This document shows positions 1 to 21,583 of a stretch of 64,000 nucleotides of DNA, one piece after another. The position numbers and the translations under genes are program-made. Numbering within the stretch: the stretch's first letter is position 1; each line of letters opens with the position of its first letter. The DNA comes from Pseudoalteromonas holothuriae (GTDB lineage Bacteria; Pseudomonadota; Gammaproteobacteria; Enterobacterales; Alteromonadaceae). The notes under the pieces are model-generated. The model had not been told where the DNA came from and searched no databases. It was given only the letters and a program-made list of their open reading frames with translations. The stretch spans positions 1 to 64,000 of the forward strand of contig NZ_CAMAPC010000006.1 of the NCBI RefSeq assembly GCF_945859825.1, written 5' to 3'.

Positions 1-266
1 TCTTAGCTTCGGTAGATGCGATGATAGGTGCGATAGATGCAAAACGTGCACAATTAGGTGCGGTGCAGAATCGATTCTCATCGACTATCCGTAACCAGAC
101 CAACATTATTGAAAATGTATCGGCGGCACGTTCACGAATTAAAGATGCGGATTTTGCGATAGAAACGGCTACGTTAACAAAAGCACAGATATTACAACAG
201 GCAAGTAGTACGATATTGTCTCAGGCGAATCAGCGTCCACAGTCAGCATTGTCACTGCTTGGGTAA
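1..266 (+). CDS. Flagellin, C-terminal fragment (cut by window start)
   Basis: The reading frame is open from base 3 to the stop at 264-266, so this is the 3' end of a gene that starts outside the window. The visible 87 residues match the C-terminal D0/D1 helices of the complete flagellin at 961-1872, with about eight substitutions over the last 81 residues, and end in the same LSLLG. Flagellin polymerises into the extracellular filament, and this region forms the inner filament core and the export/chaperone (FliS) binding end. DNA identity with the paralogue is much lower than protein identity because of synonymous changes, which points to an old duplication. Assignment as flagellin is secure; which paralogue it is cannot be decided. 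Confidence 0.95.
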   Translation, partial: LASVDAMIGAIDAKRAQLGAVQNRFSSTIRNQTNIIENVSAARSRIKDADFAIETATLTKAQILQQASSTILSQANQRPQSALSLLG

Positions 267-960: not shown

Positions 961-1872
961 ATGGCTATGTTTGTGAACACAAATGTTTCGAGCTTAAATG
1001 CGCAGAGACAATTAACAAAATCTGGTAATACACTAGATGAAGCTTTTCAGCGGTTATCTTCAGGTATGCGTATTAATAGCGCAAAAGATGATTCGGCGGG
1101 TATGCAGATTTCTAGTCGTTTAACGGGCCAAATTAATGGTCTTACTCAAGGTAACAGAAATGCCAACGACGGAATTTCATTAGCGCAAACAGCGGAAGGT
1201 GCGCTGGATGAAATGACCAGTATGTACCAGCGTATTCGTACTTTGGCAGGTCAAGCTGCGAATGGTTCAAATACGGCATCTGACCGTGCTGCATTGCAGC
1301 TTGAAGCAAGGCAGTTAGGTGAAGAAATGAACCGTATTGCAGTAGATACTACATTCGGTGGAACAAACTTGTTAGATGGTAGCTTTAGTTCTGAGTTCCA
1401 AGTGGGAGCTGATGCGAACCAAACGATCAGTATGACCATGACTGCTATTGAAGCTGCCACAGGTGGTTCAATTTCTGTGAATAGTTTTGCCGTAAGTGAT
1501 TTAGCGGCTGCAGCTAGTAGTGTAGCAGGGGTATCTTCGGGTGCGGTTAATTCATTTGCTAGTGCCAGTGGTTTATCATTTACTTCGGTTGGTGAAGCAC
1601 AGGATGTTTTAGCTGCGGTTGATGCAATGATTGGTGCAATTGATGCAAAGCGTGCGGAGTTGGGTGCGATTCAAAACCGATTCTCTTCAACGATTCGTAA
1701 CCAAACAAATGTCATTGAAAATGTATCGGCAGCAAGATCGCGTATTCAGGATGCAGATTTTGCAACTGAAACAGCTAAATTGACCAAAGCGCAAATTTTG
1801 CAGCAGGCGAGTTCATCAATTCTGAGTCAGGCTAATCAGCGACCGCAAACCGCGTTGTCATTGCTTGGGTAG
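961..1872 (+). CDS. fliC: Flagellin (filament structural protein)
   Basis: A 303-residue flagellin. The N-terminal D0/D1 region (residues 1-140) carries the classic signatures NTNVSSLNAQ, QRLSSGMRINSAKDD and the NDGISLAQTAEGAL block. The C-terminal core (about 215-303) carries RFSSTIRNQTN and ends LSLLG. The central variable part is short and rich in Ser, Ala and Thr, which are typical attachment residues for Maf-dependent nonulosonic acid glycosylation. It starts at the ATG at 961, five bases after a perfect AGGAGG. It is monocistronic or leads into flaG, and is driven by the sigma-28 promoter at 800-826. The family assignment is certain. The polar gene symbol (flaA/flaB/fliC) is arbitrary. 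Confidence 0.97.
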   Translation: MAMFVNTNVSSLNAQRQLTKSGNTLDEAFQRLSSGMRINSAKDDSAGMQISSRLTGQINGLTQGNRNANDGISLAQTAEGALDEMTSMYQRIRTLAGQAANGSNTASDRAALQLEARQLGEEMNRIAVDTTFGGTNLLDGSFSSEFQVGADANQTISMTMTAIEAATGGSISVNSFAVSDLAAAASSVAGVSSGAVNSFASASGLSFTSVGEAQDVLAAVDAMIGAIDAKRAELGAIQNRFSSTIRNQTNVIENVSAARSRIQDADFATETAKLTKAQILQQASSSILSQANQRPQTALSLLG

Positions 1873-3877: not shown

Positions 3878-4297
3878 ATGGCAAATTCATTTTCCAAAGC
3901 TTATCAAAAAGAGAGTATTAATTCTCGTTTGGCGGGAGCGGATTCATACACTATTATAACCATGTTAATGCAAGGTGCGCTTGAGCGGTTAGCCCGTGGC
4001 AAAGGCTGTATAGAAAGAAATGATTTAGCTGGCAAGGCTGAACATCTATCAAGGGCTTCTTCAATTATTCTTGCTTTGATGGAATCACTCGATCACTCAG
4101 AAGGTGGTGAAGTGACTCAGAATCTAGGTAGTTTGTATGAGTATATGAATATGCGGATCACCGATGCGAGTATTGAAAAGTCAGTTGAACCTTTGGTTGA
4201 AGTGATGTCTTTGTTGAACGAAATTAAAAGTGCGTGGGACGCTATTCCTCGAGAGGAAGTTGAGAGTGCATTACAGCTTCAACAACAAAGGGGGTAA
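3878..4297 (+). CDS. fliS: Flagellin export chaperone FliS
   Basis: A 139-residue, largely helical FliS protein, which binds the C-terminal end of flagellin in the cytoplasm and stops premature polymerisation before export. The N-terminal AYQKESINSRL segment and the LMQGALERLARGKG helix are characteristic. The C-terminal tail is Gln-rich. It lies directly after fliD and four bases before the next gene, which fits a chaperone module for the filament proteins. Confidence 0.95.
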   Translation: MANSFSKAYQKESINSRLAGADSYTIITMLMQGALERLARGKGCIERNDLAGKAEHLSRASSIILALMESLDHSEGGEVTQNLGSLYEYMNMRITDASIEKSVEPLVEVMSLLNEIKSAWDAIPREEVESALQLQQQRG

Positions 4298-4654: not shown

Positions 4655-4675
4655 ATATCATTTGGTACCCTACCC

Positions 4676-6781
4676 ATGAGTTTAGAAAATGAATTTGAAG
4701 AGTTAGTTGAGTTTGCTCATGAGCAAGTTCAACTAACTGCACAGCGTCATCAATTTGAAAAGTCGCTTATTGAGAACATGCCTAAGCAGTTTGAAAAAAA
4801 CATTCAGGCGTTTATTAAATACTTACCTGATATTGCACAGGAGTTTAGGCATTATAAACCTAAAAACCTAGACATTTTTTGTGCAAAGAATGGCGAGTTA
4901 AACATTATAGATAGTGCCACTAAGAGCCCCTTATATGGCCATGAACCATCGGTCCAATGTGAAAAACAAGTAGAGAAACTTCTTAAAAAACCTCAATTTA
5001 GTAGTTTAGAGTTTGGTATGAACGAAGGGTTGGATGATGAGTTTATTCATACAACCTATGTCCGTGAAATGTATCAGTTATACTTAGATGCTAAAAAAAT
5101 ATATGAGCCATTAACTGAAGTTCCGGAGCATATCGGATCGTCTATTATATTTGGTATTGGCTTAGGCTATCATTTAAAGCCTCTATTGGATGCCGTGACG
5201 ATTGATCATATTTATTTATGCGAGCCAAGCCGTGACTTATTTTTTGCGAGTTTATACTCATGTGATTGGGCTGAGATTTTAGAACTGATTGATAAGCGTG
5301 ATGGCAATATTATATTTAATATTGGAGTAAATTATGAAAAATTTACTATTGATTTTTTAAATGAAATGAAGCATAGAGGTGCATTTAACTCCGTTGCGAC
5401 TTTACTTTATCAGCATTATCCATCTGAGGAGTTAACACTTTTAATCAAGCAATTTCATAGAGACTTTCATATGGTTGCTATTGGTTGGGGGTTTTATGAT
5501 GATGGTGTAATTAGCATCGCGCATGACTACAATAATGCGAAACAAAGTTTACCTACGTTACGTAAAGATGCAAAACTGCCAAATAAGTGGCGCTCAATGC
5601 CTGTATTTATTATCGGTAATGGACCTTCTCTGGATGAGACTATGTCCTCGGTGATTGAATACCAAGACAAAGCCGTTATTATCAGCTGTGGATCTGCTTT
5701 GCTACCTTTATTGAAAAATAATATTATTCCAGACTTTCATGTTGCGCTGGAGCGTACACGCTTTACTTTTGATTATTATAATGAATTTATTGATCATGAG
5801 ATATTGCAGCAGATTAACTTTTTAACTGTTAATGTGATGCACCCTGAATGTGCCGGGTTATTTAAGTGGACTGGCATGGCGTTCAAAGCCGCTGAACCAG
5901 GCACGACAATTTCCTGTGAGTTTATTGATGGCTATAGACAGTTTCGTCCTATGACATACTGTAACCCTGTTGTGGCAAATACAGCGTTGGCTTTTGCATG
6001 CAATATGGGGTGTGAAGAAATATACCTCATGGGAGTTGATGGTGGTTATAAAGATCCAAAATATCACCACTCAAAAAGTAGTTCTTACTTTAATGATGAT
6101 GGAACTGACAAAGAAGACCTTTCTAAGCTAATTCGTGCTGGTGAAATGAAGACCGATGGTAATTTCACTGAAACGGTTTATACGACGGCATTTTTTAATG
6201 TTGGTAACAACCAGCTTGGTACTTTACTCGGTGATTTTCCTCATGTTAACTGTTTTAACTGCTCCGATGGTGCAAGAATAAAAAATTCAGTGCCCTTGAA
6301 GCATCATAATATATTATTGTCGAATCATTTGCCGGACAAAAATGAATTTGTTGAGGTTTTAAAAAATGAGCAATTTATCATACGGGAGTTTGACGATGTT
6401 GAGTATCAAAATTTAGTTGCCATTGATAAATTTGCTCAAGTCTGTGATGAATTAATTACGTTTGTTGACCGTGATTTTAATAATCGCTCAGAGATTGCAA
6501 TTGCTCTGAAACTACAAGTGCGTTACTTGTATTCGTATGGCCACACTCGATATAGACATTTATATTTTTTATTGGATGGCTCGATTACTTACATGCACTC
6601 AATCTTTAGGATGATTCAGTATAACTTTGAAAAAGATGAGGATGTACTTAGAGTTATGAATGATGCATTTGCCATATTCATTGAATATATGACTGAAGCT
6701 AAGGAAAAGTATCGTGGTGTATTAACTGCTAATGACTCGCAACGCAGCTACTTGATGAATATGTTGGATAGTAAAAAGTAA
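4676..6781 (+). CDS. maf: Motility accessory factor (Maf), putative flagellin glycosyltransferase
   Basis: A 701-residue protein of the Maf / MAF_flag10 (DUF115) family. Maf proteins transfer activated nonulosonic acids such as pseudaminic acid to Ser/Thr of flagellin in the cytoplasm before export. The central domain holds the family signature FIIGNGPSLDET (GNGPSLD at residues 314-320), followed by ISCGSALLPLL and a segment containing IPDFHVALERT. It also has NPVVANTALAFACNMGCEEIYLMGVDGGY, a nucleotide-binding-like strand-helix pattern (given here in two overlapping motifs: NPVVANTALAF and EEIYLMGVDGGY). The N-terminal 150 residues are helical. It lies between the filament genes and the sugar cluster at 10898-20549, which would supply its donor. 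No clear ribosome binding site precedes the ATG. Confidence 0.93.
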   Translation: MSLENEFEELVEFAHEQVQLTAQRHQFEKSLIENMPKQFEKNIQAFIKYLPDIAQEFRHYKPKNLDIFCAKNGELNIIDSATKSPLYGHEPSVQCEKQVEKLLKKPQFSSLEFGMNEGLDDEFIHTTYVREMYQLYLDAKKIYEPLTEVPEHIGSSIIFGIGLGYHLKPLLDAVTIDHIYLCEPSRDLFFASLYSCDWAEILELIDKRDGNIIFNIGVNYEKFTIDFLNEMKHRGAFNSVATLLYQHYPSEELTLLIKQFHRDFHMVAIGWGFYDDGVISIAHDYNNAKQSLPTLRKDAKLPNKWRSMPVFIIGNGPSLDETMSSVIEYQDKAVIISCGSALLPLLKNNIIPDFHVALERTRFTFDYYNEFIDHEILQQINFLTVNVMHPECAGLFKWTGMAFKAAEPGTTISCEFIDGYRQFRPMTYCNPVVANTALAFACNMGCEEIYLMGVDGGYKDPKYHHSKSSSYFNDDGTDKEDLSKLIRAGEMKTDGNFTETVYTTAFFNVGNNQLGTLLGDFPHVNCFNCSDGARIKNSVPLKHHNILLSNHLPDKNEFVEVLKNEQFIIREFDDVEYQNLVAIDKFAQVCDELITFVDRDFNNRSEIAIALKLQVRYLYSYGHTRYRHLYFLLDGSITYMHSIFRMIQYNFEKDEDVLRVMNDAFAIFIEYMTEAKEKYRGVLTANDSQRSYLMNMLDSKK

Positions 6782-6817
6782 TTGTATTACTTACATCATA
6801 TTCAATAGGAGAGATGT

Positions 6818-7555
6818 ATGACTGATTGTAAATCAACATTACAATATCAAGAAGAAACTGAGCGTTGGTATGATGAATCCTATGGTAGTGAAGGGTTTCG
6901 GGCTCAGCGGTTGTATCCTAATGAAGAGCTTTTACGGTTTTTAGGCCGCAAGTTTTTCAATGGTACTCAAAGAGAAGATAGAAAAGACATTAGAGTATTA
7001 GAACTAGGCTGTGGCTCTGGCGCGAACTTATGGATGATAGCTAAAGAGGGCTTTGATACGTACGGTATTGATCTTTCTCAGCAAGCGATAAGCTTAGCAG
7101 AGTCTATGTTAATTCATTGGGATGTAAACGCAACGTTAGTGAAAGGCAGCTTTGAAGAGCTGCCTTTTGAAGACGATTATTTTGACGTTATCATTGATGT
7201 ATTTTCAACTAATTGTTTAACACACAGTGCTTTTACTCATTGTTTAAAGCAAGTTAAACGTTGTTTAAAGCCTTCTGGTGCTTTTTTTTCTTACACCCCA
7301 TCAGCTGCCAGTGATGCTTTTAAAAATCACCACCCAGCTAAATTGATTGATGCATGGACGTTAAATGGCGTGTTTAGAGAGTCATCCCCTTTTTCTGGTC
7401 AGGCATATCCATTTAGATTTATTGATGCAGAGCATTATCAGGCCTTACTGCAAGAAAATGGGATTATAGTTGATTATTTAGAGACTGTTGGTAGAACCTA
7501 CAATACGAAAAAAGAATACTTTGAATTTATTGTTGTATCAGGTATTAATGAATGA
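6818..7555 (+). CDS. Class I SAM-dependent methyltransferase
   Basis: A 245-residue methyltransferase with the SAM-binding motif [14 protein letters not shown] (about residues 62-74). The acidic end of strand 2 follows in [10 protein letters not shown], and motif IV-like [13 protein letters not shown] comes later. The start is well supported by AGGAGAG six bases upstream. It overlaps the next gene by four bases (ATGA), so translation is probably coupled. Position behind maf suggests O- or N-methylation of the flagellin sugar or of flagellin itself. The substrate is not readable from sequence. Confidence 0.85.
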
Positions 7556-8592
7556 CGTTTGAACTGAGCGATTGGCTTAAGCAGTATGTGCAAAATGCAA
7601 ACATGGACGTACGGTTTAATGATAAAGTAGTACTTGAAGAGTTTATCCGAACGAGTGGTTGCAGTGTCATTGATCATTACACCTGGATGTCAGATTACCA
7701 CAAAGAATATTTAGCAAGCCAATATGACAAAGTGCAGTGTGCTTCGCTATTACTGGAGTCTAACGGAAAAGTAGCAGGTGTGTTTACCATAAATGTTCGC
7801 CAAACAGAAAATTCATATGAACTAGGCAGTAGTTCAGCGGAAGTCTTACCGCCTTTTATTGAACAAACGCTTTCAAGAAAGGTAAAACACAAATTATATA
7901 AACAATGTTTTAATTTATTATTGGCTTTAAGTGACACGCTAAGTATCAAAAATTTAGCATCGAGTTTTGACTTTCAAAGTGGTATTTGTGAACCGTGGTA
8001 TAACTTGTTTTTGCAGTATGGCGCGAAAATAAATGTAAGTCAGAACTTGTTTTGTGATCTTACTATGAGCTCAGATGCATATTTAAATGCTATTAGAGAG
8101 CGCTATAAAAATCATATTAAGCGTGCTGATAAACTCTGGAATATCAGTATAAAAACACAAATAAACTGGCAAGATTTTTATCTTTTTCAGCAGTTACACT
8201 TAGATGTTGCAGGTTTTAAAACTCGCAGTGATTTATCTTGGGAAATGCTATATCAGGCCGTTAATCGCCAAGATGCTTTCGTTGTTATTGTTTTGGATCA
8301 AAGCAATAACTTAGTTGGTGCGGCATTATTTACTGTATCGAATGAGGTTGCCACCTATTCAGTTGGTGTATATGACCGTTCTTTATTTGCAAGCCCGGTA
8401 AGTCATTTAGTGCATTATCGAGCGATTGAGAAAATGCGTGATTTAGGGATAAAAACTTACTTTATTGGCGCTAAAAATGCATTAAATGAATGGCATCAGC
8501 CTTCTGAAAAAGAGTCTAAAATCGGCGAGTTTAAAGAAGGCTTTGCGACTTTTTCGTTACTGAAAACCCACTTATCTATTGAATTAAAATAA
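7552..8592 (+). CDS. FemAB/GNAT-like acyltransferase
   Basis: A 346-residue protein with no signal peptide. Residues about 175-330 resemble the acyl-CoA/aminoacyl transferase fold seen in FemAB and GNAT-like proteins. The segment [13 protein letters not shown] is followed by a Phe/Gln-rich helix, [17 protein letters not shown], then TYSVGVYDR and [22 protein letters not shown]. This order (substrate-binding helices, beta strand with a Val-Gly-Ala core, then a His-x-x-Tyr-x-x-Ile helix) is typical of those folds. In this context it may N-acylate an amino group on the nonulosonic acid. The call is by fold pattern only. Translation is coupled to the preceding methyltransferase. Confidence 0.6.
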
Positions 8593-8601
8593 GGCACTGT
8601 T

Positions 8602-9966
8602 ATGACTCGTTGTATTGTTATTGGGGGAGGGATCACAGGACTTTTCTCGGCAATTTTAGCAAGTAAATATTTTGATAACGTAACGCTTATTGAAAATGCA
8701 CCTAAATGTGGTGGGTTGTTACAGTCGTGGCAAGATGAAAGCGGTAACTTTTTTGATTTGGGGACGCATATTCTATCAGAAACCAGTAATCAGCAAATTA
8801 ATGATATTTTGTTTAAAGGTATATACGAGAACCCGCAAGATTGGCATCAGTTTGAAGTCATGAAAGTTTCTAGTAGTTTTAATTCTGCTCGCTATGATAC
8901 TGGTCAGTTTGTACCGTTGCACTATCTTGATGAAGGTGATTATGAAAAAGCGCTTTTGCAATTACTTAATGCCAAAGGGTTACCAATTGAACAAGCTGAT
9001 AATTTAGAGCAGTTTGCAATTGAAAATTATGGTCTAATTGTAACCGATAAAATATTTAGGCCTATCATGCTTAAATTACAAAATGCAGAGCTTAAAGATT
9101 TACATCCTTCGGTACATTATATATTTGGATTGAGTCGGTTTATTCCGGGTTCAGTTGAACTTGCAAGAGAGCTAAAAAAATCCCCTTGTTATGATGCAAA
9201 ACTGGCATTTGCTACTTATTATGATGGGGTTAGCGATGTACCTAAATACTACCCTAAGCGGGGCGGTGTTGAACTTTGGATAGACTATCTGGTTGAACAA
9301 GCAACCGAATTAGGTGTGGAAATTCAAACGTCACAGTGCGTCACAAATGTTGCGTTTTCGGATAGTAAAATAACTGATGTTATATTGGGAAATGGTGAAC
9401 AACTCTCGTGTGATCATATTATTTGGACTATCCCACCTGTTTTTGCTTTAAAGTTACTTGATTGGCCCTTAGCGAATATTCCAGTACGATTTTGTCCAAC
9501 CTCGTTACATCACTTTGTTTTAGATAAACCGTTTATTGATAAAAACTTTTATTCAAATGTTTATGATATCAATAGTATTCCTTTTCGTGTCACTTTTTAT
9601 CCGAATATAACTAATGATAATGTGGTTGGTCCTTATAATTGCACAGTTGAGGTATTGGGTGAGTTTGACCTAACAGAGCAAGCGCTTAATGATCAAATAA
9701 TTTTAGAGCTTAAGTCTTTAGGTTACATCGAGCAAGGTGCAAGTGTAGTCCGTGTTTCAAGTACCAAGCTTGCGATGGGTTTCCCCCAGTTCAGCAATGC
9801 GTTTGTGAATGAAAGAATAAGACAAATAGACGCGCTGGAAGCCGGGGTCAAAAATATGACTTTACTGGGCAAAGCGAGTAAAAAAGAGTTTTTTATTTAT
9901 AGTGTGTTGCAAGAAGCATATGAGCAACTAACTTATAAATTTGATGATAGCCTTACTTCGTCTTAA
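8602..9966 (+). CDS. FAD-dependent oxidoreductase (amine oxidase/UDP-galactopyranose mutase-like)
   Basis: A 454-residue flavoprotein. The N terminus has the Rossmann dinucleotide motif VIGGGITGLFSA (residues 6-17) and an acidic residue (LIENA) at the end of strand 2. GGLL and FDLGTHI then follow at the positions seen in protoporphyrinogen oxidase and UGM-like enzymes. The C terminus has LLGKASKKEFF, where this family usually contacts FAD. It would bind FAD non-covalently in the cytoplasm and oxidise or isomerise a sugar or amine. It lies 9 bases after the acyltransferase. The reaction and substrate are unknown; a role in tailoring the flagellin sugar is inference from location. Confidence 0.7.
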   Translation: MTRCIVIGGGITGLFSAILASKYFDNVTLIENAPKCGGLLQSWQDESGNFFDLGTHILSETSNQQINDILFKGIYENPQDWHQFEVMKVSSSFNSARYDTGQFVPLHYLDEGDYEKALLQLLNAKGLPIEQADNLEQFAIENYGLIVTDKIFRPIMLKLQNAELKDLHPSVHYIFGLSRFIPGSVELARELKKSPCYDAKLAFATYYDGVSDVPKYYPKRGGVELWIDYLVEQATELGVEIQTSQCVTNVAFSDSKITDVILGNGEQLSCDHIIWTIPPVFALKLLDWPLANIPVRFCPTSLHHFVLDKPFIDKNFYSNVYDINSIPFRVTFYPNITNDNVVGPYNCTVEVLGEFDLTEQALNDQIILELKSLGYIEQGASVVRVSSTKLAMGFPQFSNAFVNERIRQIDALEAGVKNMTLLGKASKKEFFIYSVLQEAYEQLTYKFDDSLTSS

Positions 9967-9985
9967 AGGTATACAAAGGAAAAAT

Positions 9986-10660
9986 ATGAGTAAGTTTAAT
10001 TGGCAAGCTATTTACGAAGCGGGTGAGCAACTTAACCAATATCCTTACGATTTTGTTGTGTCACATTTTTTTAAGTTAAAAAGAGCCTGTAAAAATAAGC
10101 AATTAAAAGTGCTTGATTTAGGATGTGGTGCTGGTAATCATGCAATTTTTTGTGCCGAGCAGGGTGCGCAAGTTGTGGCATGTGACTTCTCTATTGCGGC
10201 ACTTAAGGTAGTTGATAAACGGGCAAAAGAAAAAGGATTAGAGGATAAAATTACCACATACCAAGTAGACTTTGATGACTTCCAGTTACCATATTCCAGC
10301 TTTGATATTGTTATTGACAGGCTTGCAGTGACAAATGTATCTCATAAAAGCGCAAGTTCAGTTTATGAATGTGTTTATGATGCGATGTCAAAGGGCGGTT
10401 CAGTTATCGCTAATTTTTTTACGGATATGCACTCACACAAAAATTTTGGCCAATACTGTGAACAAGAGCAAGTATGGAAAAACTTTTCTGGTGGTATGTT
10501 TGAGCCGTTAAAAACTGCAAATTTTTATACACATATGCAGATTCTTCAGTTATTTAATCAATACCAATTTACTGCATTAAATAAAGAGACGGATGAGTCT
10601 GTATTAGCAAATAACGATTCATGCTTATCGACATGGAAGCTACTGGCAAAAAAATGTTAA
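9986..10660 (+). CDS. Class I SAM-dependent methyltransferase (second)
   Basis: A 224-residue methyltransferase. The SAM motif VLDLGCGAGNHAIF and the following strand VVACDFSIAAL are clear. I chose the ATG at 9986 because AAGGA sits five bases upstream (9976-9980). An in-frame ATG at 9941 would overlap the preceding gene by 26 bases and lacks a binding site. It closes the five-gene run that begins with maf. It is not closely similar to the methyltransferase at 6818-7555 outside the SAM motifs, so the two probably modify different positions. Confidence 0.82.
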   Translation: MSKFNWQAIYEAGEQLNQYPYDFVVSHFFKLKRACKNKQLKVLDLGCGAGNHAIFCAEQGAQVVACDFSIAALKVVDKRAKEKGLEDKITTYQVDFDDFQLPYSSFDIVIDRLAVTNVSHKSASSVYECVYDAMSKGGSVIANFFTDMHSHKNFGQYCEQEQVWKNFSGGMFEPLKTANFYTHMQILQLFNQYQFTALNKETDESVLANNDSCLSTWKLLAKKC

Positions 10661-10897: not shown

Positions 10898-12175
10898 TTA
10901 ATTGGCTACTACTATTAGCCCTTCACCTTTGAGATTATCAATTATTTCATATAAGTCCCAAATGGGAACTTGTATCTTTTGCGCTATTTCTAATGTAGAT
11001 AACTTACCATCACAGTAAATAATAAAATTCATCATATTGCTAACCAGTTGGTTACTTGCTTTGGTGCTTAAATTTGGATACAAGCCGCGTTTACCAAGTT
11101 GAGGTTCGCACTTTACTGTGAGTTGTAATACTTCATTGCGCTCAATTACCTCTAGACTGCGTTGTAGAGCTTCATAGCCACCTTGAAGTCCACTGGGTGT
11201 CACTAAGCTAAGATCATCTAAAGATGTATGATACTCAGGATATTGATTGTATTTGGTACGCATAATTGAAGCAATAGGCAAGTCAATACCTGGTGCGCAG
11301 TACCTTCGCTCGTCACTGCCACTTTCGATAAATGGATAGGTCTTATAATCAGGAGCAAGGTGTTGTAAGACATGTTGAGCAACGATATCTGAGAGCGTAT
11401 TTTCAGCCCGAGAAGGCAAATATGAGTAGCCTCGGTCGTCACCGATGCAGGTAATGTTAAAACCAGCAAATACATGCTTCTTTAGAGTGTGTTCATGTCT
11501 ACTCAAATAGGTTAAAGAACCAATTGTCTCAGGAATAAAAACTATTCTATAACTATATCTGAGTTCAGGTTGTTGCTGTAACCACTTGGCTAAATAAGTT
11601 GTCACCGTAGGGCCTGATAGTTCATTATTAGCCAATGAAGGGTGGCAAACATAAGTTGATAAAAATACTTCCTGCTTTGATTTCCCTTCGATAATTAATT
11701 CTGCATAGGTTAGGTGACCATTTTTGAGCTCAGAGTCAATCACAACGTGATATTCGCCATCTTCTAATTGATCAAATTGCTTTTGTGTAAGGCAAAATCC
11801 CCAATAGCGTGAGTAGTAAGAAGTAATGTATGGAATTGCATCAGGCTGTTCAGGTAGTGTGTGAAGATGCTCTTTCAATTCATTTAGTGAAAGTTTTAGA
11901 TTAATAGGAGTTGAGTAACCAACAACGTGCAAGTTACTTATATTAAAGTCAACAATCTTGCGCCCTTTAGGGTCAATAATATACGCGTCATTAATATTCC
12001 ACTCTTGAGGTACAGTCCAATCAAAACATGGTGTGCCTGTTGGCACTTCATGTATTTTTAGATTAGGTAAATGCTCGCCAATGATGTTTAATGTTTTACG
12101 GACACCATTACCTGTTATGCTTCTGCATATTGGCCAAAGTTCAGTGGCTAGTTGATGAATTTGAGTGCCTATCAT
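10898..12175 (-). CDS. DUF4910-type putative aminopeptidase with C-terminal winged-helix domain
   Basis: A 425-residue protein. Its architecture is that of the DUF2172/DUF4910 family, predicted zinc aminopeptidase-like proteins common in polysaccharide and nonulosonate loci. Visible landmarks are CFDWTVPQEWNI (50-61), the likely metal-site segment CHPSLANNELSGP (177-189), a second block SGSDERRYCAPGID and then YHTSLDD. The last 60 residues (DGKLSTLEIAQKI..LKGEGLIVV) look like a small winged-helix domain. Whether it cleaves peptides or acts on a sugar amide is unknown. It follows pseI by 25 bases on the same strand and is probably co-transcribed with it. Confidence 0.75.
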   Translation of the reverse strand: MIGTQIHQLATELWPICRSITGNGVRKTLNIIGEHLPNLKIHEVPTGTPCFDWTVPQEWNINDAYIIDPKGRKIVDFNISNLHVVGYSTPINLKLSLNELKEHLHTLPEQPDAIPYITSYYSRYWGFCLTQKQFDQLEDGEYHVVIDSELKNGHLTYAELIIEGKSKQEVFLSTYVCHPSLANNELSGPTVTTYLAKWLQQQPELRYSYRIVFIPETIGSLTYLSRHEHTLKKHVFAGFNITCIGDDRGYSYLPSRAENTLSDIVAQHVLQHLAPDYKTYPFIESGSDERRYCAPGIDLPIASIMRTKYNQYPEYHTSLDDLSLVTPSGLQGGYEALQRSLEVIERNEVLQLTVKCEPQLGKRGLYPNLSTKASNQLVSNMMNFIIYCDGKLSTLEIAQKIQVPIWDLYEIIDNLKGEGLIVVAN

Positions 12176-12200: not shown

Positions 12201-13259
12201 TTACTTGCATAATTCCCAACTTAACGGAGTCCCTCTGCTGATATCTTGTGTTGCTCTTTTGCCCAGAATACTTTGATAATGTTTTGGCGCTAAGCCGAAT
12301 CCTGGGCGTATGCGGCGAATATTTTGTTCACACAAAATATCTCCTTTTTTAATATCTTCTACCACATATATCGAGCGCCTGAACTGTAGATTAGCAGCTT
12401 CAGCATCACGTAGATCATAATTAGCTTGACCAAGTGACTGCCATGCGTCTTTAGTGCTATCACATAAATGTTTTAGTTCGTCAGGCTCAAGTGAAAAAGC
12501 AGCATCAGGGCCTCCATCTTCTCTTGATAGGGTAAAATGTTTTTCTATCACAACTGCGCCAAGTGCTGTTGCAGTGATTGCTGCAGTAGTCCCAAGTGTA
12601 TGATCTGATAAACCGACATGGACGTCAAAGTCTTGTTGTAATCGCTGTATCGTTTTTAAATTAGAGTCGGCTATTGGGGTTGGGTAACCACTAATACAGT
12701 GAAGTACTATTAACTCCTTATTACCATTTTGCTTAGCAACTTTGATAGCGCTGGCTATCTCTTCGTAACTTGCCATGCCAGTAGACATAATTATCGGTTT
12801 GAGGGTTTGTGCAACTTTAGCAATAAGAAGGTGATCGACCAGCTCAAAAGAGGCTATTTTGTAAGCTGGTGTGTCTAAAGACTCTAAGAAATCGACTGCG
12901 GTTTCATCAAATGGTGAGCTAAACAGGGTGATATTTAGTGTTTTAGCATAATTAAATAGCGTTTGATGCCATTCCCAAGGCGTATGCGCCCACTCATATA
13001 GCTGATATAGGTTTTTTCCATCCCATAGCCCACCCTCTATGCAAAAATCTGGTTTATGACAATTTATGGTCATGGTATCTGCGGTGTAGGTTTGCATTTT
13101 AACAGCATGCGCACCTGACTCTTTTGCAACTTGAATGAGCTTTTTGGCGCGCTCAATATCGCCATTATGGTTACCTGAAATTTCAGCAATGATATAGGGT
13201 TCATTTGAAAGACCTATGGATATATTGTTCAGGATTATGCTTTTTTTCATAGTGCTCAT
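12201..13259 (-). CDS. pseI: Pseudaminic acid synthase (NeuB family)
   Basis: A 352-residue NeuB-family enzyme that condenses phosphoenolpyruvate with a 2,4-diacetamido-2,4,6-trideoxyhexose to form a nonulosonic acid. The N-terminal TIM barrel shows YIIAEISGNHNGD, HAVKMQTY, the GGLWDGKNLYQLYEWAHTPWEWH block typical of PseI rather than NeuB sialate synthase, MSTGMAS, GLSDHT and EKHFTL. The C-terminal SAF (antifreeze-like) domain covers about residues 285-350. The start could be the ATG at 13259 or at 13250; neither has a strong binding site. It is separated from the other pse genes by a gene on the opposite strand, so it needs its own promoter. Confidence 0.92.
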   Translation of the reverse strand: MSTMKKSIILNNISIGLSNEPYIIAEISGNHNGDIERAKKLIQVAKESGAHAVKMQTYTADTMTINCHKPDFCIEGGLWDGKNLYQLYEWAHTPWEWHQTLFNYAKTLNITLFSSPFDETAVDFLESLDTPAYKIASFELVDHLLIAKVAQTLKPIIMSTGMASYEEIASAIKVAKQNGNKELIVLHCISGYPTPIADSNLKTIQRLQQDFDVHVGLSDHTLGTTAAITATALGAVVIEKHFTLSREDGGPDAAFSLEPDELKHLCDSTKDAWQSLGQANYDLRDAEAANLQFRRSIYVVEDIKKGDILCEQNIRRIRPGFGLAPKHYQSILGKRATQDISRGTPLSWELCK

Positions 13260-13524
13260 TACAGTAGGCTTTAATACAGCAAAGTGTATCTTACTTTTTG
13301 ATTAGATTCATTTTTACAAGCTTCTTTTTAGCTAATGCGTATTCGGGCAGCTAGAATGGGTTTCTTCTGAGTCACTGCGTATTTGCCTGCATTGGAAAAA
13401 CGCTATATGCTAAGCTTATAACTCATTATTTATAAGGCAGTTTTAGGCTCTTTTCAATTGCCCTTTAGCAACTGGTTTGTTGTTAAAGACTGTTCAGTAA
13501 ACTAAACACTATAAGTTGAATATT

Positions 13525-13941
13525 ATGAATGAATTACAACAACTTAATCAATTGATGTCTGACTCGGCTCAAGATGCTATTGGCTACATCAAAAATATTA
13601 GTAATGAAGATATTGATTTTAATGAAGCTGGTATTCAGCAGTTAGATAGTATTTTGACAGGGTTGTCTCAAGAACATAATGTAAACCCATTTGATAATAA
13701 AATGTTGTTTACTGTCAGTACTATGCTAGGCGCGTTTATCGGAGAAACTTTCAGGAATCGTTTGGGTGGTGAATGGTTTATGGACAAAAGTAATCCAGAT
13801 GCGCCATTTATTGTGCTTAATTATGCAGGTAAATCTTATCCATTTGCATCCGTTTGTTTTGAGAAGATAGTTAATGACCCACAGACAAGTGTATTGAAAT
13901 ATTATGAGTTAGCATTGAATAATGGAGCCTCATCAGGTTAA
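13525..13941 (+). CDS. Conserved hypothetical protein inside the pse cluster
   Basis: A 138-residue soluble protein that starts at the ATG at 13525; an in-frame TTG lies nine bases earlier. I do not recognise it with confidence. It has an acidic helical N terminus (MNELQQLNQLMSDSAQDAIG) and then a compact domain with MLGAFIGETFRNRLGGEWFMDK and FIVLNYAGKSYPFASVCFEKIVND. This pattern recalls the DUF3806-type or SUKH-like small domains that have a conserved GE..R..LGG.W motif. It stands alone on the plus strand between pseI and pseG, and its 3' end overlaps the convergent pseG-GNAT gene by nine bases. No role in sugar synthesis can be claimed. Confidence 0.75.
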   Translation: MNELQQLNQLMSDSAQDAIGYIKNISNEDIDFNEAGIQQLDSILTGLSQEHNVNPFDNKMLFTVSTMLGAFIGETFRNRLGGEWFMDKSNPDAPFIVLNYAGKSYPFASVCFEKIVNDPQTSVLKYYELALNNGASSG

Positions 13942-15471
13942 AAGTGGTTCAAGTATAAATAAGTCTTTTGCAACTTTTGTAAACCCTGCCTTGGAGAATA
14001 AAATTTGCGAAGCAATATTATCTGGATGCACTGCTGCGGTGATTGGCAAACTTTTATATTTGCTTGGTATTGATTCAATCGCTTTTAAAGCCAGCCCTCT
14101 TCCTTGTTGTGACGGGCAAATAAGAATTGAAATTTCGTATTGAGAATTTTGTAAATCAAGCCTAAGCATTCCTACAGAGCATTCTGAGCCGTCTTGCCAG
14201 CACTCCTTAACAATAAAAAGGTGGCGGGTGGGGCTGTTACTAATAGATTGTGCAAACCAATGGCAATGTTCTTCATAGCTTATCTGGTGGTTTGACCTTG
14301 AGTACTTTCGCACTGAAGGTTGTGATTGCCAATCAAATAAGAGGTCTTTGTCTTCAGTTACTGCTGGGCGCAAGTTTACCACTGATAATTGGAGCTTTTG
14401 TATTGTTCTTACAACACCTTTGCCATCACAGCATTCGAATGCATTTTCACTCATGTTTTGGTATTGTTCAGGTTTATTTATGATTGTAGAGAGTGCATTT
14501 TTGACTGTTTCCTGAGTCAGCTCTTTGGCTTTGCCAAGGTTTATAAGGGCGTTACGTTGGGATAGCTTATCAAGTACTAGCGCTTGATTATCTGCAAACT
14601 CGATAGCGAGTGTTGGTAAACCTAAACAGCAGCGCTCCCAAGCCGAAGAGCCACTTGCGCCGATTGCTATATCAGCTTGGTACATCAGCTCTGCCATATT
14701 TGACGCATTCTGTTGCACGCTAAACCAAGGATATTTTTGTTCAGTACTGTGATAGTAGTTTAATTCACTACATTGGCTTGTAATGACGAGTACAACGTTC
14801 ACAGGGGTTAAAAGAGAGGTATTTAACGCTTCAATAGCGCCAATTACAATGTTGTTTGTTTCACTGGTATCTGAACCGCCAAGGCTAATAAGTACGTTTT
14901 GAATAGTTTGGGTTGATTGACGTTTTGCAAGTGCCTTCTTACGTAAACTAGAAAACTCATCTCGCAATAACATATGTGCTTTTCCGAGCAATAATTTGCA
15001 GTTATTTGGGACTAGGCCTCGATAACGTAACGCTTTTGCATCTAGTGTTTGATCAAGTAAAAAGTCGCATTGGTGTTCTCGGTCCGCTAAATCATCAATA
15101 ACAAGTGTTTTATCGACTCGAGTTGATATTGATGAGACATACCAGCATTTTTTGATGTTGTAATGGTCTATTATCAGCAATTGAATAGACTCAAATCGGC
15201 TGATAGCTTTTGCTACACTTTGAGCGTCGTTAATAAGCCATTGGTTATTATTATTACTATGACGATAAACTTCTTCGAGTGAAAAGCTATGTTTAGATAA
15301 TATGGATTGATAATTCTTGGGTATATCATCAGCACATATAAAAGTTATTTTAAACTCGACCTTAGCTTGTAATAGTGTGTTTTTAAAGCCGACAGCCAGC
15401 GCTAAGCAACGCATAAAGTGTCCTGCACCAATGGATGCGTTGACATCTACTCTTACGGCTATGTTAATCAT
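13933..15471 (-). CDS. pseG: PseG-type UDP-sugar hydrolase fused to GNAT acetyltransferase (PseH-like)
   Basis: A 512-residue fusion. Residues 1-350 are PseG-like: the N-terminal motif IGAGHFMRCLALA (GxGH..R), DHYNIKKCW, VIDDLADREHQCDFLLDQ and a C-terminal GT-B half with ISLGGSDTSETN and GASGSSAWERCCLGLP. PseG removes UDP from UDP-2,4-diacetamido-2,4,6-trideoxy-altrose. Residues about 365-512 are a GNAT domain (NLRPAVTEDKDLLFDWQ.., ICPSQQGRGLALKAI, HPDNIASQILFSKAGF), where PseH is expected to acetylate the 4-amino group. PseH acts one step before PseG, so the fusion joins consecutive steps. The start overlaps the stop of the upstream aminotransferase by one base, which implies coupled translation. 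Confidence 0.88.
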   Translation of the reverse strand: MINIAVRVDVNASIGAGHFMRCLALAVGFKNTLLQAKVEFKITFICADDIPKNYQSILSKHSFSLEEVYRHSNNNNQWLINDAQSVAKAISRFESIQLLIIDHYNIKKCWYVSSISTRVDKTLVIDDLADREHQCDFLLDQTLDAKALRYRGLVPNNCKLLLGKAHMLLRDEFSSLRKKALAKRQSTQTIQNVLISLGGSDTSETNNIVIGAIEALNTSLLTPVNVVLVITSQCSELNYYHSTEQKYPWFSVQQNASNMAELMYQADIAIGASGSSAWERCCLGLPTLAIEFADNQALVLDKLSQRNALINLGKAKELTQETVKNALSTIINKPEQYQNMSENAFECCDGKGVVRTIQKLQLSVVNLRPAVTEDKDLLFDWQSQPSVRKYSRSNHQISYEEHCHWFAQSISNSPTRHLFIVKECWQDGSECSVGMLRLDLQNSQYEISILICPSQQGRGLALKAIESIPSKYKSLPITAAVHPDNIASQILFSKAGFTKVAKDLFILEPLLT

Positions 15472-16751
15472 TATCTTACCTTAAATACGCTTTGCAGGGG
15501 TTCGCCTGAGAAAAGCTCCTCTAGGTTTTGCTTTGCAACGCAGTTAGCCAAGATAGGAAGTACCTCCGAGTAGGCCTTGAGTAGTGTTTGAATATGTTTC
15601 TCTTTGTGCGCATAGCTAAGGTTATGGCTTGCATTTATTAATATGCCACGCTTGGCCATCTCCTGTATAAATAGCGAACGTAGTTGTATTGCGCTGTACT
15701 TTCCTTGATTCGCGATATGAATAAACGACCAGCTTGGGTGACCTGAAGTATAAACCCAATCTTGTATATCGTTATCGATAATGATTTTATTTAACTTATC
15801 AGTCAGCAGTGAGCCTAGTTGACTTAAATGTTGTGTGACTTGGTTACGTTGTATTTTTTCGATTGTGGCATAGGTCGCAGCCAGAGATAGTGTCTCCCCA
15901 GCAAAAGTACCAGAGAAGAAAATGTCGTTCATTAACGCCATAATCTCTTTTTTGCCACAAACGACTGAAATAGGGAAGCCATTGGCAATGCCTTTACCAA
16001 ATGTTGCCAAATCAGGGGATACCCCGAATAGAGATTGCGCTCCGCCTAAATCAAACCGAAACCCAGTGATCGTCTCGTCAAAAATTAATACAGCTTGGTA
16101 TTGCTCGCATAACGATTTAACGCCTTTTAAATACCCTTTTTCAGGGTATGCTATATTCATTGGCTCCATAATAACAGCCGCTATATCGTGGGACTTTAAC
16201 AGCTGCTCAAGTGACTCAAGGTTATTATACTCAAAAGTATGGGTAAGCGCTTGTGTAGAAGCGGGTACCCCTAAGTTTCTAGATGTACTGCCAATGTACC
16301 AATCTTGCCAGCCGTGATAGCCGCACACTGCAATGTGTTCTTTATTTGTGTAAGCTCTGGCAAGCCTGATTGCTGCAGATGTTGCGTCGCTGCCATTTTT
16401 AGCAAATCGAACTTGCTCTGCACACGGGATGAGTTCACAAATTTTTTCAGCAACATCAATTTCTATAGGATGAGATAAAGAGAAAGAAACGCCAGATTGC
16501 ATTTGTTTCATTACCGCTTGGTCAACACAAGGGTCACAGTAGCCCAAAGAGATTGCTAATAATCCATTCACGAAATCTATGTATTCATTGTCATCGGCAT
16601 CAGTAACAATACACCCTTGTCCACGCTTGATAAATAATGGGGCCGCACCTTTGGGGAAAGCCATTTGGCTTTTACTAAATGTTTGCGCACCTAAGGGTAT
16701 ATACTCTAGTGCGCGTACTAAGTTTTGATTTGAATTATCAAAGCGGTTCAT
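15471..16751 (-). CDS. Class III PLP-dependent aminotransferase (glutamate-1-semialdehyde aminomutase-like)
   Basis: A 426-residue fold-type I PLP enzyme close to glutamate-1-semialdehyde 2,1-aminomutase (HemL-like). It has DADDNEYIDFVNGLLAISLGY, RFAKNGSDATSAAIRLARAYT (phosphate-binding region), CGYHGWQDWY, VIMEPMN, FDETITGFRF and the Schiff-base lysine in FGKGIANGFPIS. It is not likely to be the haem-pathway enzyme, since it sits inside a sugar operon between the SpsF-like and pseG genes. Probable role: amination or amino-group migration on a nonulosonic acid precursor or side chain. This enzyme is not part of the canonical six-step PseBCHGIF route. Confidence 0.85.
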   Translation of the reverse strand: MNRFDNSNQNLVRALEYIPLGAQTFSKSQMAFPKGAAPLFIKRGQGCIVTDADDNEYIDFVNGLLAISLGYCDPCVDQAVMKQMQSGVSFSLSHPIEIDVAEKICELIPCAEQVRFAKNGSDATSAAIRLARAYTNKEHIAVCGYHGWQDWYIGSTSRNLGVPASTQALTHTFEYNNLESLEQLLKSHDIAAVIMEPMNIAYPEKGYLKGVKSLCEQYQAVLIFDETITGFRFDLGGAQSLFGVSPDLATFGKGIANGFPISVVCGKKEIMALMNDIFFSGTFAGETLSLAATYATIEKIQRNQVTQHLSQLGSLLTDKLNKIIIDNDIQDWVYTSGHPSWSFIHIANQGKYSAIQLRSLFIQEMAKRGILINASHNLSYAHKEKHIQTLLKAYSEVLPILANCVAKQNLEELFSGEPLQSVFKVR

Positions 16752-16754
16752 AAT

Positions 16755-17507
16755 TTATTTATCTCCAACAGCATTGTTTTTCAAAGCTTCATTTCTTTCA
16801 AAATGTTCATTTTGTTTTAGCCACTGAGGGTGTTTATAAAGGAGCTTAAGCGTACTGCTTAGGTCAAAATTTGGCTCAGTTTTGTAAAGGGACTCATATA
16901 TATTTTTTATTAGTTGTAAGTCTTGCGGATGATCTACTGTTAATCGGTAGTCAGGTATTAATTCATTTGCTTCAAAATTTGCACATGTAAGCGTATCAGG
17001 CTGAGTGAATAAATATGGAGTAACATGCTCACGCTGATATGCGGTTTTTGCTTCATGATGCGCTGTTCTCAGTGCACTAGTTTTCATAATTTCAACATCA
17101 AGGCCATCTGGAAAGGTTGCAGGATGGCAATTGCTTGTAAAGTCTGCCTTTTTACATAAATGTAGGTTTACTATTTTATCAACTAATGCACTATCAACTA
17201 ACGGACAGTCAGCGGTGATTCTAACAATATGGTCACTAGGGTATGCGATGCTCGCTAGATAAAATCGCTGCAATACGTCGTCTAAAGGACCTCTGAAGCA
17301 ATGAATTTGATAATTTGTACAAAATTCTTCAATGGCATCATCTGATATTTGATCGCTAGTAAGTACCACAATTTTGTCTATTGTGGTTGTGTACTTAAGA
17401 CGTTCTATAATATGCAATAACATAGGTTTGTTGAGTATGTTCTCAAGTACCTTACCGGGGAGTCGACTAGATGTCATTCTTGCCTGAATAAATACGTTTA
17501 TTTTCAT
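16755..17507 (-). CDS. SpsF-like cytidylyltransferase (nonulosonic acid activation)
   Basis: A 250-residue nucleotidyltransferase with the signature INVFIQARMTSSRLPGKVL (residues 3-21), then MLLHIIERLK and VRITADCPLVD. These match the SpsF / NeuA-like cytidylyltransferase family found in Bacillus spore coat loci. Campylobacter-type PseF instead begins with an IIPARGGSKGIP signature. In this position it is expected to activate the final sugar as the CMP derivative for Maf. It ends three bases before the aminotransferase start. Whether it truly uses CTP and a nonulosonic acid cannot be read from sequence. Confidence 0.83.
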   Translation of the reverse strand: MKINVFIQARMTSSRLPGKVLENILNKPMLLHIIERLKYTTTIDKIVVLTSDQISDDAIEEFCTNYQIHCFRGPLDDVLQRFYLASIAYPSDHIVRITADCPLVDSALVDKIVNLHLCKKADFTSNCHPATFPDGLDVEIMKTSALRTAHHEAKTAYQREHVTPYLFTQPDTLTCANFEANELIPDYRLTVDHPQDLQLIKNIYESLYKTEPNFDLSSTLKLLYKHPQWLKQNEHFERNEALKNNAVGDK

Positions 17508-17533
17508 TTTTGTTGATTCTTACTGCACTGATA

Positions 17534-18405
17534 TTAGTTTATCGGCCAATTTGCCGGATTGATAAGCTCTAAATCATCACACTTTAGTACTTTAATATGT
17601 TTGGGGTGAAGAGGGAGCAGTTGTAGGGCTTTAGCGTAATTGGTTAGTATCTGTTCCAATTGATTCGTTGAGCATACACCAACAATGGCTTGACTGATAA
17701 AATCAAAATGCAAGGCGATGGCTAGCGCTAAAATCATAGGAGTGCACTGTAATTCAGTACATACTTTGTGAAAGCGCTCAAAGTCACTCTTAAATTTATT
17801 AAAATGAGCTGGCAAGCTTTGTATATCACTTAATAAAGCGCCCTGAAGAAATAATGAACGAGTATGTACTTCGATATTATGGGTTTTGTATAATTCAAGG
17901 CATGCACTTTGGGCAAAGCGTTGATCAAAACAATTTAGTGGGATTTGAACTACGTCTATTGGGAAGTTGTCGCTTATCTTTGCTAATTGTTCTGGTGTGT
18001 ATACAGAAACCCCTATTTTTTCACAAAGGCCTTGTGCTTTTATCTCAAGTGCTTGCTCAAAAAAAGTATTGGCTTCTGCAGATAATAGGTCATCTGCGTT
18101 ATGAAAAAGTAACGCATAGACGCAGTCTACTTTTAAAGCTGCTAGGCTTTGCATAAAGGTTTGCTTAATGTCTTTATTTTCTGCATTTAGGCTAGGTATC
18201 TTGGTAACAATTTTAAAGGTCTCTAAGCTGTCATATTGACTAAGTGCTTGCTCACTTTTTCCATATGCACGAGCGGTATCTAACAATCTAATGCCAGATT
18301 GTTGCGCTAAATTAAGAATTTTTTTGATCTCATGGTTCTTGACTTGGCCATCATGATTGGTCACACCATAACTTAAGCCAAATTGAACAGTACCTATTGC
18401 TAACT

Positions 18406-18409
<4 letters not shown>
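17534..18409 (-). CDS. Aldo/keto reductase family protein
   Basis: A 291-residue AKR-fold enzyme. The catalytic tetrad is visible: Asp and Tyr in LLDTARAYGKSE, Lys in IVTKIPS and His in YALLFHNADD. The C terminus has IVGVCSTNQLEQIL, the usual NADP-binding loop. I chose the ATG at 18409 because it gives a four-base ATGA overlap with pseC; an in-frame ATG lies six bases upstream. Such reductases accompany pse/leg genes in other marine Gammaproteobacteria, but their substrate is not established. Reduction of a keto-sugar or side chain is the obvious inference. Confidence 0.83.
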
Positions 18410-20687
<2,278 letters not shown>

Positions 20688-20797
20688 TAGCAAACATAAT
20701 AAACATGGCTTAGGGTGACATTTTTATCAAGAAAGACTAAAATTTAGACATAAATAGCATGTGATTTGAGCACGTAAATGTGCCTACAGGAGGAATT

Positions 20798-21583
20798 ATG
20801 AAAATTTCACCACCAAGTTTTAGTGCGCTAAACCGTACAGAAGAAGCGGCTAGTAAAATTAATCAGCAGTTAGCTTCTGCCAAACGAGTTAATAGTGCTG
20901 CAGATGATGCAGCAGCATTGCAGATTATAGACCGATTAAACTCTCAACAAGATGGTTATCAGCAGTCAATAAGAAATGCGTACGATGGTATTTCATATTC
21001 ACAAACTGCTGATGCCGCACTTTCAGGGGTTAATGATGCAGTAACTCGAATTGAGGAGCTATCTGTTCAAGCTGGTAACGGCGCTTTGAGTGATTCAGAT
21101 AGGCAAGCTTTGCAAAGTGAAGTTGCGCAGTTGCAGACACAAATATCAGAAACTTTTGAGAATACTTCATTCGGTGGGGCCTCTGTTTTTACAGGCCAAG
21201 AAACGCAGTTTCAAGTTGGGCCTGATGCAAATACAACTCAGAGTTTAACTGTGCGAGATGGTAGTTTTGCAGATGATATCGCGAACATCGACATCTCCAC
21301 TCAGGCTGGAGCTCAAGCCGCGCTTGATGTGACTAAGGTAGTTTCTGAAGATCTCAACACTCAGCGTGCGGAATTAGGGGCATTTGAAAATACAGTTGCA
21401 AGTAGAATTAAAAGTTTGGGAACTCAAGCTGAGAATATTGCAGCGAGCCAAAGTCGCATTGAAGATACCGACTATGCCAAAGTTATTTCTGAACAAACTG
21501 CTAATAATATTCTCTCACAAGCATCAATTGCTGTGCGTGGGCAAGCTAATCAATCGGCTTCAGCAGTACTCGGACTTTTATAG
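20798..21583 (+). CDS. Short, divergent flagellin-like protein
   Basis: A 261-residue flagellin homologue that starts at the ATG at 20798, behind AGGAGG (20788-20793). Both conserved ends are present: RVNSAADDAAALQIIDRL and NAYDGISYSQTADAAL near the N terminus, FENTSFGGASVF in the middle, and SRIEDTDYAKV..NNILSQASIAVRGQANQSASAVLGLL at the C terminus (shown in part). It lacks the NTNVSSLNAQ start of the filament flagellins and almost all of the variable domain. It may be a minor filament subunit, for example a proximal flagellin, or a FlgL-like/regulatory paralogue. No clear sigma-28 site precedes it. It sits alone between the pse operon and flrA. Confidence 0.88.
   Translation: MKISPPSFSALNRTEEAASKINQQLASAKRVNSAADDAAALQIIDRLNSQQDGYQQSIRNAYDGISYSQTADAALSGVNDAVTRIEELSVQAGNGALSDSDRQALQSEVAQLQTQISETFENTSFGGASVFTGQETQFQVGPDANTTQSLTVRDGSFADDIANIDISTQAGAQAALDVTKVVSEDLNTQRAELGAFENTVASRIKSLGTQAENIAASQSRIEDTDYAKVISEQTANNILSQASIAVRGQANQSASAVLGLL

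Follow-up and report, generated by a model that had tools for sequence, protein, structure and literature searches.

A probable pseudaminic acid-tailoring gene set behind maf in a flagellin glycosylation island of Pseudoalteromonas holothuriae

For nonulosonic acids, the genes of core biosynthesis are known, but most of those responsible for the many unusual N- and O-substituents of these sugars are not. What, then, do the genes that directly follow maf in Pseudoalteromonas holothuriae (genome size 5.18 Mb) contribute to its flagellin glycan? We analyzed a stretch of 64,000 nucleotides (hereafter the window), for which an earlier note had proposed four sugar- or protein-modifying genes behind maf that would yield methylated, acylated or oxidized nonulosonic acid. 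Our analyses lead us to regard these genes as a module that probably tailors pseudaminic acid (Pse) within a flagellin glycosylation island.

The plus strand between 961 and 10660 carries, in this order, a flagellin gene (961..1872; PF00669 E 3.3e-40, PF00700 E 2.2e-25) whose product is the likely glycosylation target, flaG, fliD, the flagellin export chaperone gene fliS (3878..4297; PF02561 E 1.5e-32), which lies upstream in the same run, a fliT-like ORF, maf (4676..6781), a SAM methyltransferase gene of the kind paired with FemAB-type genes (MT1; 6818..7555; PF13649 E 1.4e-19), a FemAB-type transferase gene (7552..8592; PF13480), a gene for an FAD enzyme of the flavin amine-oxidase superfamily (8602..9966; PF01593 E 4.1e-15) and a second SAM methyltransferase gene (MT2; 9986..10660; PF13649 E 1.3e-16); fliD and the fliT-like ORF were named by position. 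The maf product possesses both the N-terminal domain (PF20157, E 5.8e-61) and the MptE-like domain (PF01973, E 4.5e-32) of Maf, each over its cut-off, in agreement with its earlier assignment as a flagellin glycosyltransferase, here taken to transfer nonulosonic acid. No gap from flaG to MT2 exceeds 36 bp, and the four genes behind maf are indeed co-directional and overlapping or closely spaced, with ORFs as previously described (maf/MT1 36, MT1/FemAB-type -4, FemAB-type/FAD 9 and FAD/MT2 19 bp). This co-directional run (4676-10660) is far above chance, because its five longest stretches free of stop codons span 701, 457, 346, 248 and 242 codons, whereas 200 base-shuffled versions of it never exceeded 180 codons. 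The start of MT2 is more likely the ATG at 9986, which follows AAAGGAAAA, than the TTG at 9941, and therefore the FAD and MT2 genes probably do not overlap. The GC content of MT1, MT2 and the FemAB-type and FAD genes is 35.7-37.3%, compared to 40.0% for the window. A promoter scan was uninformative (30 sites vs. a shuffle mean of 40.4), and a terminator scan returned 11 sites vs. a shuffle mean of 8.7.

The interval 4676-10660 consists of maf and the four genes, but the minus-strand genes that follow belong to the same picture. They begin with a fifth candidate that the earlier note had missed, a gene for a Cj1295-type protein with DUF4910, DUF2172 and HTH_47 domains (10898..12175; PF16254 E 3.9e-106, PF09940 E 9.6e-41, PF16221 E 1.5e-22). 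The pse block (12201-20570) comes next, with genes for pseudaminic acid synthase PseI (12201..13259; TIGR03586, 524.5 bits, cut-off 340), a PseG-PseH fusion (13933..15471; TIGR03590, 235.9 bits, above its cut-off; TIGR03585, 38.7 bits, below the cut-off of 93.1), a GSA-aminomutase-like class III aminotransferase (15471..16751; PF00202 E 2.9e-53; NF004856, 401.6 bits, below the cut-off of 486), a PseF-like CMP-sugar cytidylyltransferase (16755..17507; PF02348 E 3.9e-35), an aldo/keto reductase (17534..18415; PF00248 E 4.2e-30), a PseC-like aminotransferase (18406..19551; PF01041 E 1.8e-103) and a PseB-like dehydratase (19548..20570; PF02719 E 6.5e-105). Past this block, the plus strand carries a second flagellin gene and one for a FleQ-type regulator.

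Are these genes linked to maf elsewhere? Among 108 genomes of the genus, 82 have a maf homologue and 26 have none. Homologues of the FAD enzyme are found in 45 of the 82 maf-bearing and none of the 26 maf-less genomes (Fisher p 7.6e-8), and those of the DUF4910 protein in 40 and none, respectively (Fisher p 8.5e-7), but these p values overstate the case and are not independent tests, as the genomes and loci are related. Within 15 kb of maf lie 51 of the 52 FAD matches (the exception is a weak match, E 3.6e-4), so placed in all 45 genomes that have one, as well as 34 of the 40 DUF4910 matches, some of the other six being on separate contigs. At E<=1e-15, the same holds for 12 of the 13 non-self matches to MT1 and 9 of the 10 to MT2. 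The window's exact FemAB-type gene is rare (1/108); congeners bear analogous gene sets of the same enzyme classes.

We compared the window with loci from 37 of the other 81 maf-bearing genomes, a non-random choice drawn largely from the highest-scoring genomes, and with three outgroup loci (41 loci in total, 38 of them from the genus with the window included). FemAB-type genes of families 19, 31 and 48 occur in 16 of the 38 genus loci, all 16 of which contain an FAD gene, 15 a methyltransferase gene of the MT1/MT2 cluster (cluster 13) and 14 a DUF4910 gene; the last count was 14/14 before family 48 of L060 and L063 was recognized as FemAB-type. The DUF4910 gene belongs with the module because of this frequency. 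The order is maf-MT1-FemAB-FAD-MT2-DUF4910(<) in the window, maf-GNAT(<)-MT2-FAD-FemAB19-DUF4910(<) in the sister genome G484, whose MT2 orthologue is 51% identical, maf-FAD-MT-PseH-DUF4910-FemAB19 in L047, L052 and L056, and maf-DUF4910-FAD-FemAB19(<)-MT(<) in L067-L074, where (<) marks the opposite strand. Thus, the enzyme classes persist in these loci while families and gene order vary, as if the module were a kit of exchangeable parts, and there are about four independent arrangements that combine FAD, FemAB-type, DUF4910 and methyltransferase genes. The window's FAD enzyme and MT1 are distant from their counterparts in most congeners. Partial sets were also found. L075 and L076 have DUF4910, methyltransferase and FAD genes with an aminoglycoside-N-acetyltransferase-like gene and no FemAB-type gene. 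An FAD gene occurs without DUF4910 in eleven genus loci, nine of which also lack a FemAB-type gene and have FAD beside pseI, and without a family-19 or family-31 FemAB gene in 13 of the 41 loci, 2 of which have family 48, leaving 11. The outgroup loci L038 and L040 are without FAD.

Beyond the genus, the FemAB-type gene follows Pse. The nearest NCBIfam model is TIGR04421 (FemAB_IMCC1989), against which the window protein scores 179.2 bits; given the curated cut-off of 250, it is a relative and not a member. Four of 369 genomes of the class match this model, one of them weak and stop-ridden, and one class genome (G341) passes it with 263.3 bits. The FemAB search of plasmid records gave no match and a single-sequence scan of genome contigs no confirmed match, but an alignment-query scan of genome contigs yielded 18 loci. 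Fourteen of these have at least two Pse-type genes and 12 have pseB, pseC or pseI, while maf or flagellin genes appear in 3 of the 18 within the stretch examined. The FemAB-type enzyme therefore tracks Pse more than flagella, so that the flagellar link drawn earlier stands as a tie to Pse and not as one strictly to flagella. The 15 loci without maf or flagellin in the stretch examined would suit a module for decorating O-antigen, capsule or some other polymer, whose place behind maf would be incidental. We consider this very improbable for the window, whose genes continue from maf with short gaps and whose FAD and methyltransferase homologues in the genus are almost confined to maf islands. 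What these comparisons demonstrate is which genes are present, that they are co-linear, and that the enzyme classes repeatedly occur linked to one another, to Pse genes and to maf. The confinement of FAD and DUF4910 to maf-bearing genomes of the genus, the MT1 and MT2 homologues in maf islands and the FemAB relatives in Pse loci across phyla support, in outline, the idea of a nonulosonic-acid decoration module beside Maf.

What would the FemAB-type enzyme add? It had been described as FemAB/GNAT-like, of which FemAB-type is retained and plain GNAT is not. In its predicted structure (pLDDT 89.8), the two-GNAT-domain FemABX fold extends over most of the protein, and the top fold matches are FemX (1ne9; Foldseek E 2.8e-13, TM 0.66/0.68) and the streptothricin peptide synthases Sba18 and Sbb17 (Sba18 9wqy, VIA Z 21.6, rmsd 3.1, 279 aligned), with 6snr at VIA Z 22.5 (rmsd 4.4, 308 aligned); tandem GNATs and N-myristoyltransferase align at lower Z. 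At the sequence level, the window protein matches PF13480 alone at E<=0.01 and not PF02388, which the FemAB analogues of L060 and L098 pass; it has no match in the PDB as a single sequence or as a profile, and hhalign of its family against family 19 gave a weak probability of 60.8. The family-19 profile, for its part, matches Sbb17 by sequence (E 4.9e-5). An alignment of the window protein with those of 13 of the 18 loci (L084, L090 and L093-L095 were left out) revealed Phe327 in 14/14 and Lys328 in 13/14 relatives, at a C-terminal place like that of the catalytic pair F304-K305 of FemX, of which they may be the counterpart. Of the 19 FemAB-type proteins in families 19, 31 and 48, all but one have FKxxF/Y near the C-terminus (18/19), and FK is present in the remaining one. 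In the available sections of the respective reports, F304 and K305 of FemX are essential (PMC4964394), DhpH-C uses F328 and K329, and Orf11 transfers glycine from Gly-tRNA to an amino-sugar intermediate (PMC12945691). As both the fold and the Phe-Lys motif place the enzyme near the FemABX aminoacyl transferases, we infer that its donor is more probably aminoacyl-tRNA than acyl-CoA. The acylated product predicted earlier would then probably be an aminoacylated one.

The same module could instead employ a FemAB-type enzyme that takes a hydroxyacyl group from acyl-CoA or acyl-ACP; MT1 and MT2 would then serve as two O-methyltransferases, and the product would resemble di-O-methylglyceroyl-Pse. 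The number of methyltransferases suits a product with two O-methyls, some genus loci encode AMP-binding enzymes, and the di-O-methylglyceroyl-Pse of Campylobacter jejuni depends on Cj1295, a protein of the DUF4910 kind (PMC3068675, available sections). We nevertheless find this rather doubtful, given that the top folds are aminoacyl-tRNA transferases, that the island in the window showed no AMP-binding gene and that the window protein lacks the CoA loop [RQ]xxGx[GA], a weak pattern present in only 11/20 PseH controls and somewhere in 4/14 members of the FemAB family.

Either cap needs an acceptor, which the DUF4910 protein may provide. Its 425 residues combine DUF4910, DUF2172 and a winged helix, all three over their Pfam cut-offs, and it has a solved relative (3k9t, E 1e-116). 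Cj1295 itself presumably bears the same three Pfam domains. According to the available sections of its description, Cj1295 is a 435-residue protein with an aminopeptidase-like domain that C. jejuni requires for di-O-methylglyceroyl-Pse, with removal of the C5 acetyl group being its authors' proposal (PMC3068675). By analogy, we propose that the DUF4910 protein may be a de-N-acylase or an acyl-exchange factor. De-acylases were found in 3 of the 18 FemAB loci (DUF4910 in L079, PIG-L in L081 and L092) and no de-N-acylase was detected beside FemAB in the other 15, so the de-N-acylation step is not universal. The acceptor amine might be installed by two enzymes of the pse block (aldo/keto reductase and class III aminotransferase) and not be freed by DUF4910; both are encoded in the window, and a class III aminotransferase in 11 of the 18 FemAB loci. 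This origin is unlikely, in that the pair is also usual in loci without a FemAB-type gene and in group I islands of Aeromonas (PMC7874193, available sections), and the FemAB loci L085, L087 and L088 have Pse genes and show no such aminotransferase.

The methyltransferases MT1 and MT2 match generic models only, which do not separate N- from O-methylation. The nearest neighbors of MT1 in the phylogenetic tree are two Bacillota genes (100/98), followed by L038 (99/99) and then by L060 and L063 (99/97), and all six genes of this branch adjoin a FemAB-type gene. A further locus, L098 (another family of the same class), was found via MT1 alone; its methyltransferase gene overlaps the FemAB-type gene by one base within a maf and NeuB island. 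The MT1 branch is thus beside a FemAB-type gene in 7/7 loci from two phyla, of which four (window included) were known via FemAB and L060, L063 and L098 were not. This pairing bears on whether MT1, MT2 or both might methylate flagellin lysines and not the glycan, as the methyl-lysines on Shewanella oneidensis flagellins would allow (PMC3765264, available sections). We judge that very unlikely: the closest relatives of MT1 (Bacillota L079 and L084) adjoin Pse-type genes as well as a FemAB gene, and neither maf nor flagellin genes were found in the stretch examined.

The FAD enzyme is the least defined member. Its model, built from 5 sequences, is poor (pLDDT 58) and speaks neither for nor against a ring mutase like UDP-galactopyranose mutase (4dsg). 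Against TIGR00031, the family model of that mutase with a cut-off of 303.75 bits, the enzyme scores 17.1 bits, and no precedent for the FAD step was found in the literature searched. In one genome (L055), FAD enzyme and methyltransferase share a single 680-residue ORF, which, barring a sequencing error, hints that the two act together.

Taken as a Pse-tailoring module, these genes suggest the following route. By homology, the pse block would provide CMP-pseudaminic acid and Maf would place Pse on flagellin. Before transfer, the DUF4910 protein, if it acts like Cj1295, would free or exchange an N-acyl group on Pse, which the FemAB-type enzyme, with its resemblance to transferases that use aminoacyl-tRNA, might then re-cap. 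MT1 and MT2 may methylate the added group or the sugar, and the FAD enzyme could oxidize either one, the weakest of these steps. In a specific form of this route, which we advance tentatively, as a possibility, the FemAB-type enzyme would aminoacylate the nonulosonic acid with aminoacyl-tRNA as the donor, and the accompanying methyltransferase and FAD enzyme would then convert the residue (e.g., seryl to a methylated glyceroyl-like cap); tRNA-dependent amino-sugar acylation, known from streptothricin-type antibiotics, would in that case also be a widespread means of diversifying the sialic-acid-like sugars of flagella and cell surfaces. A tRNA-dependent FemAB-type enzyme would link translation substrates to flagellar glycan diversity. 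The locus offers defined, recurring candidates (FemAB-type, FAD, paired methyltransferase and DUF4910), with a concrete prediction for each.

Variable flagellin glycosylation islands are a known kind, while this particular set, with its likely tRNA-dependent cap, is undescribed in the open-licence literature searched. Relatives are nonetheless apparent. The Aeromonas polar flagellin islands likewise have pse, aldo/keto reductase and class III aminotransferase genes beside maf, as well as variable methyltransferase, deacetylase and GNAT genes, but no FemAB or FAD enzyme is named in the available sections of their description (PMC7874193). FemABX, Sbb17, Sba18 and Orf11 share the double-GNAT fold, and probably a C-terminal Phe-Lys, with the window protein (PMC12945691; PMC4964394, available sections), at about 9-15% identity. 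In S. oneidensis, the tailoring operon sfmABCDE lies near maf and includes the methyltransferase SfmD, and the flagellin bears mono-acetylated Pse (274 Da) that carries a moiety of 236/250/264 Da with up to two methyls; unlike the window, the operon encodes a TPP enzyme (SfmB), a reductase (SfmC) and an ATP-grasp protein (SfmE), and the FemAB and FAD classes are not among its five genes as given in the available sections (PMC3765264). In C. jejuni, a Cj1295-type, aminopeptidase-like protein, akin by its domain description, is encoded in a Pse flagellin locus whose product carries a methylated acyl group on the Pse amine, with no FemAB-type or FAD partner named in those sections of the report that were available (PMC3068675). 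Both precedents, as far as these sections describe them, fit a sequence of trimming, re-capping and methylation (PMC3068675; PMC3765264).

In the outgroup locus L038, a second protein with an MptE-like domain, which is one of the two domains of Maf, is encoded at 7203-8516 on the reverse strand and adjoins the FemAB-type and first methyltransferase genes; the L038 island therefore contains two Maf-type transferases. In the window itself, at least three flagellin genes are found, at 1-266 (forward strand, at the window start, where only the 3' end is present), 961-1872 and 20780-21583. A 141-residue ORF without a Pfam match (13516-13941, forward strand) lies between pseI and the pseG-pseH fusion, and the sister locus L041 carries a relative of it.

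Among the congener maf loci, the FAD enzyme and methyltransferase of L055 are joined in one reading frame of 680 residues (4665-6707, forward strand), while those of its relative L052 are encoded by two distinct genes that overlap by 20 bases. We also observed that 13 congener loci (L042-L049 and L052-L056) had an additional nonulosonic-acid gene set behind maf, consisting of genes for an aminotransferase, PseF, PseI, an FAD enzyme, PseG, a methyltransferase, a second PseC-like protein and another methyltransferase, with a WbqC gene as a frequent, not constant, component. The AKR-pseC-pseB block of these loci is located apart from this set.

FemAB relatives also adjoin Pse genes in one Pelagibacteraceae and one SAR86 genome (L087 and L088), where neither maf nor flagellin genes were found in the examined stretch. 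These two loci are probably associated with surface polysaccharide.
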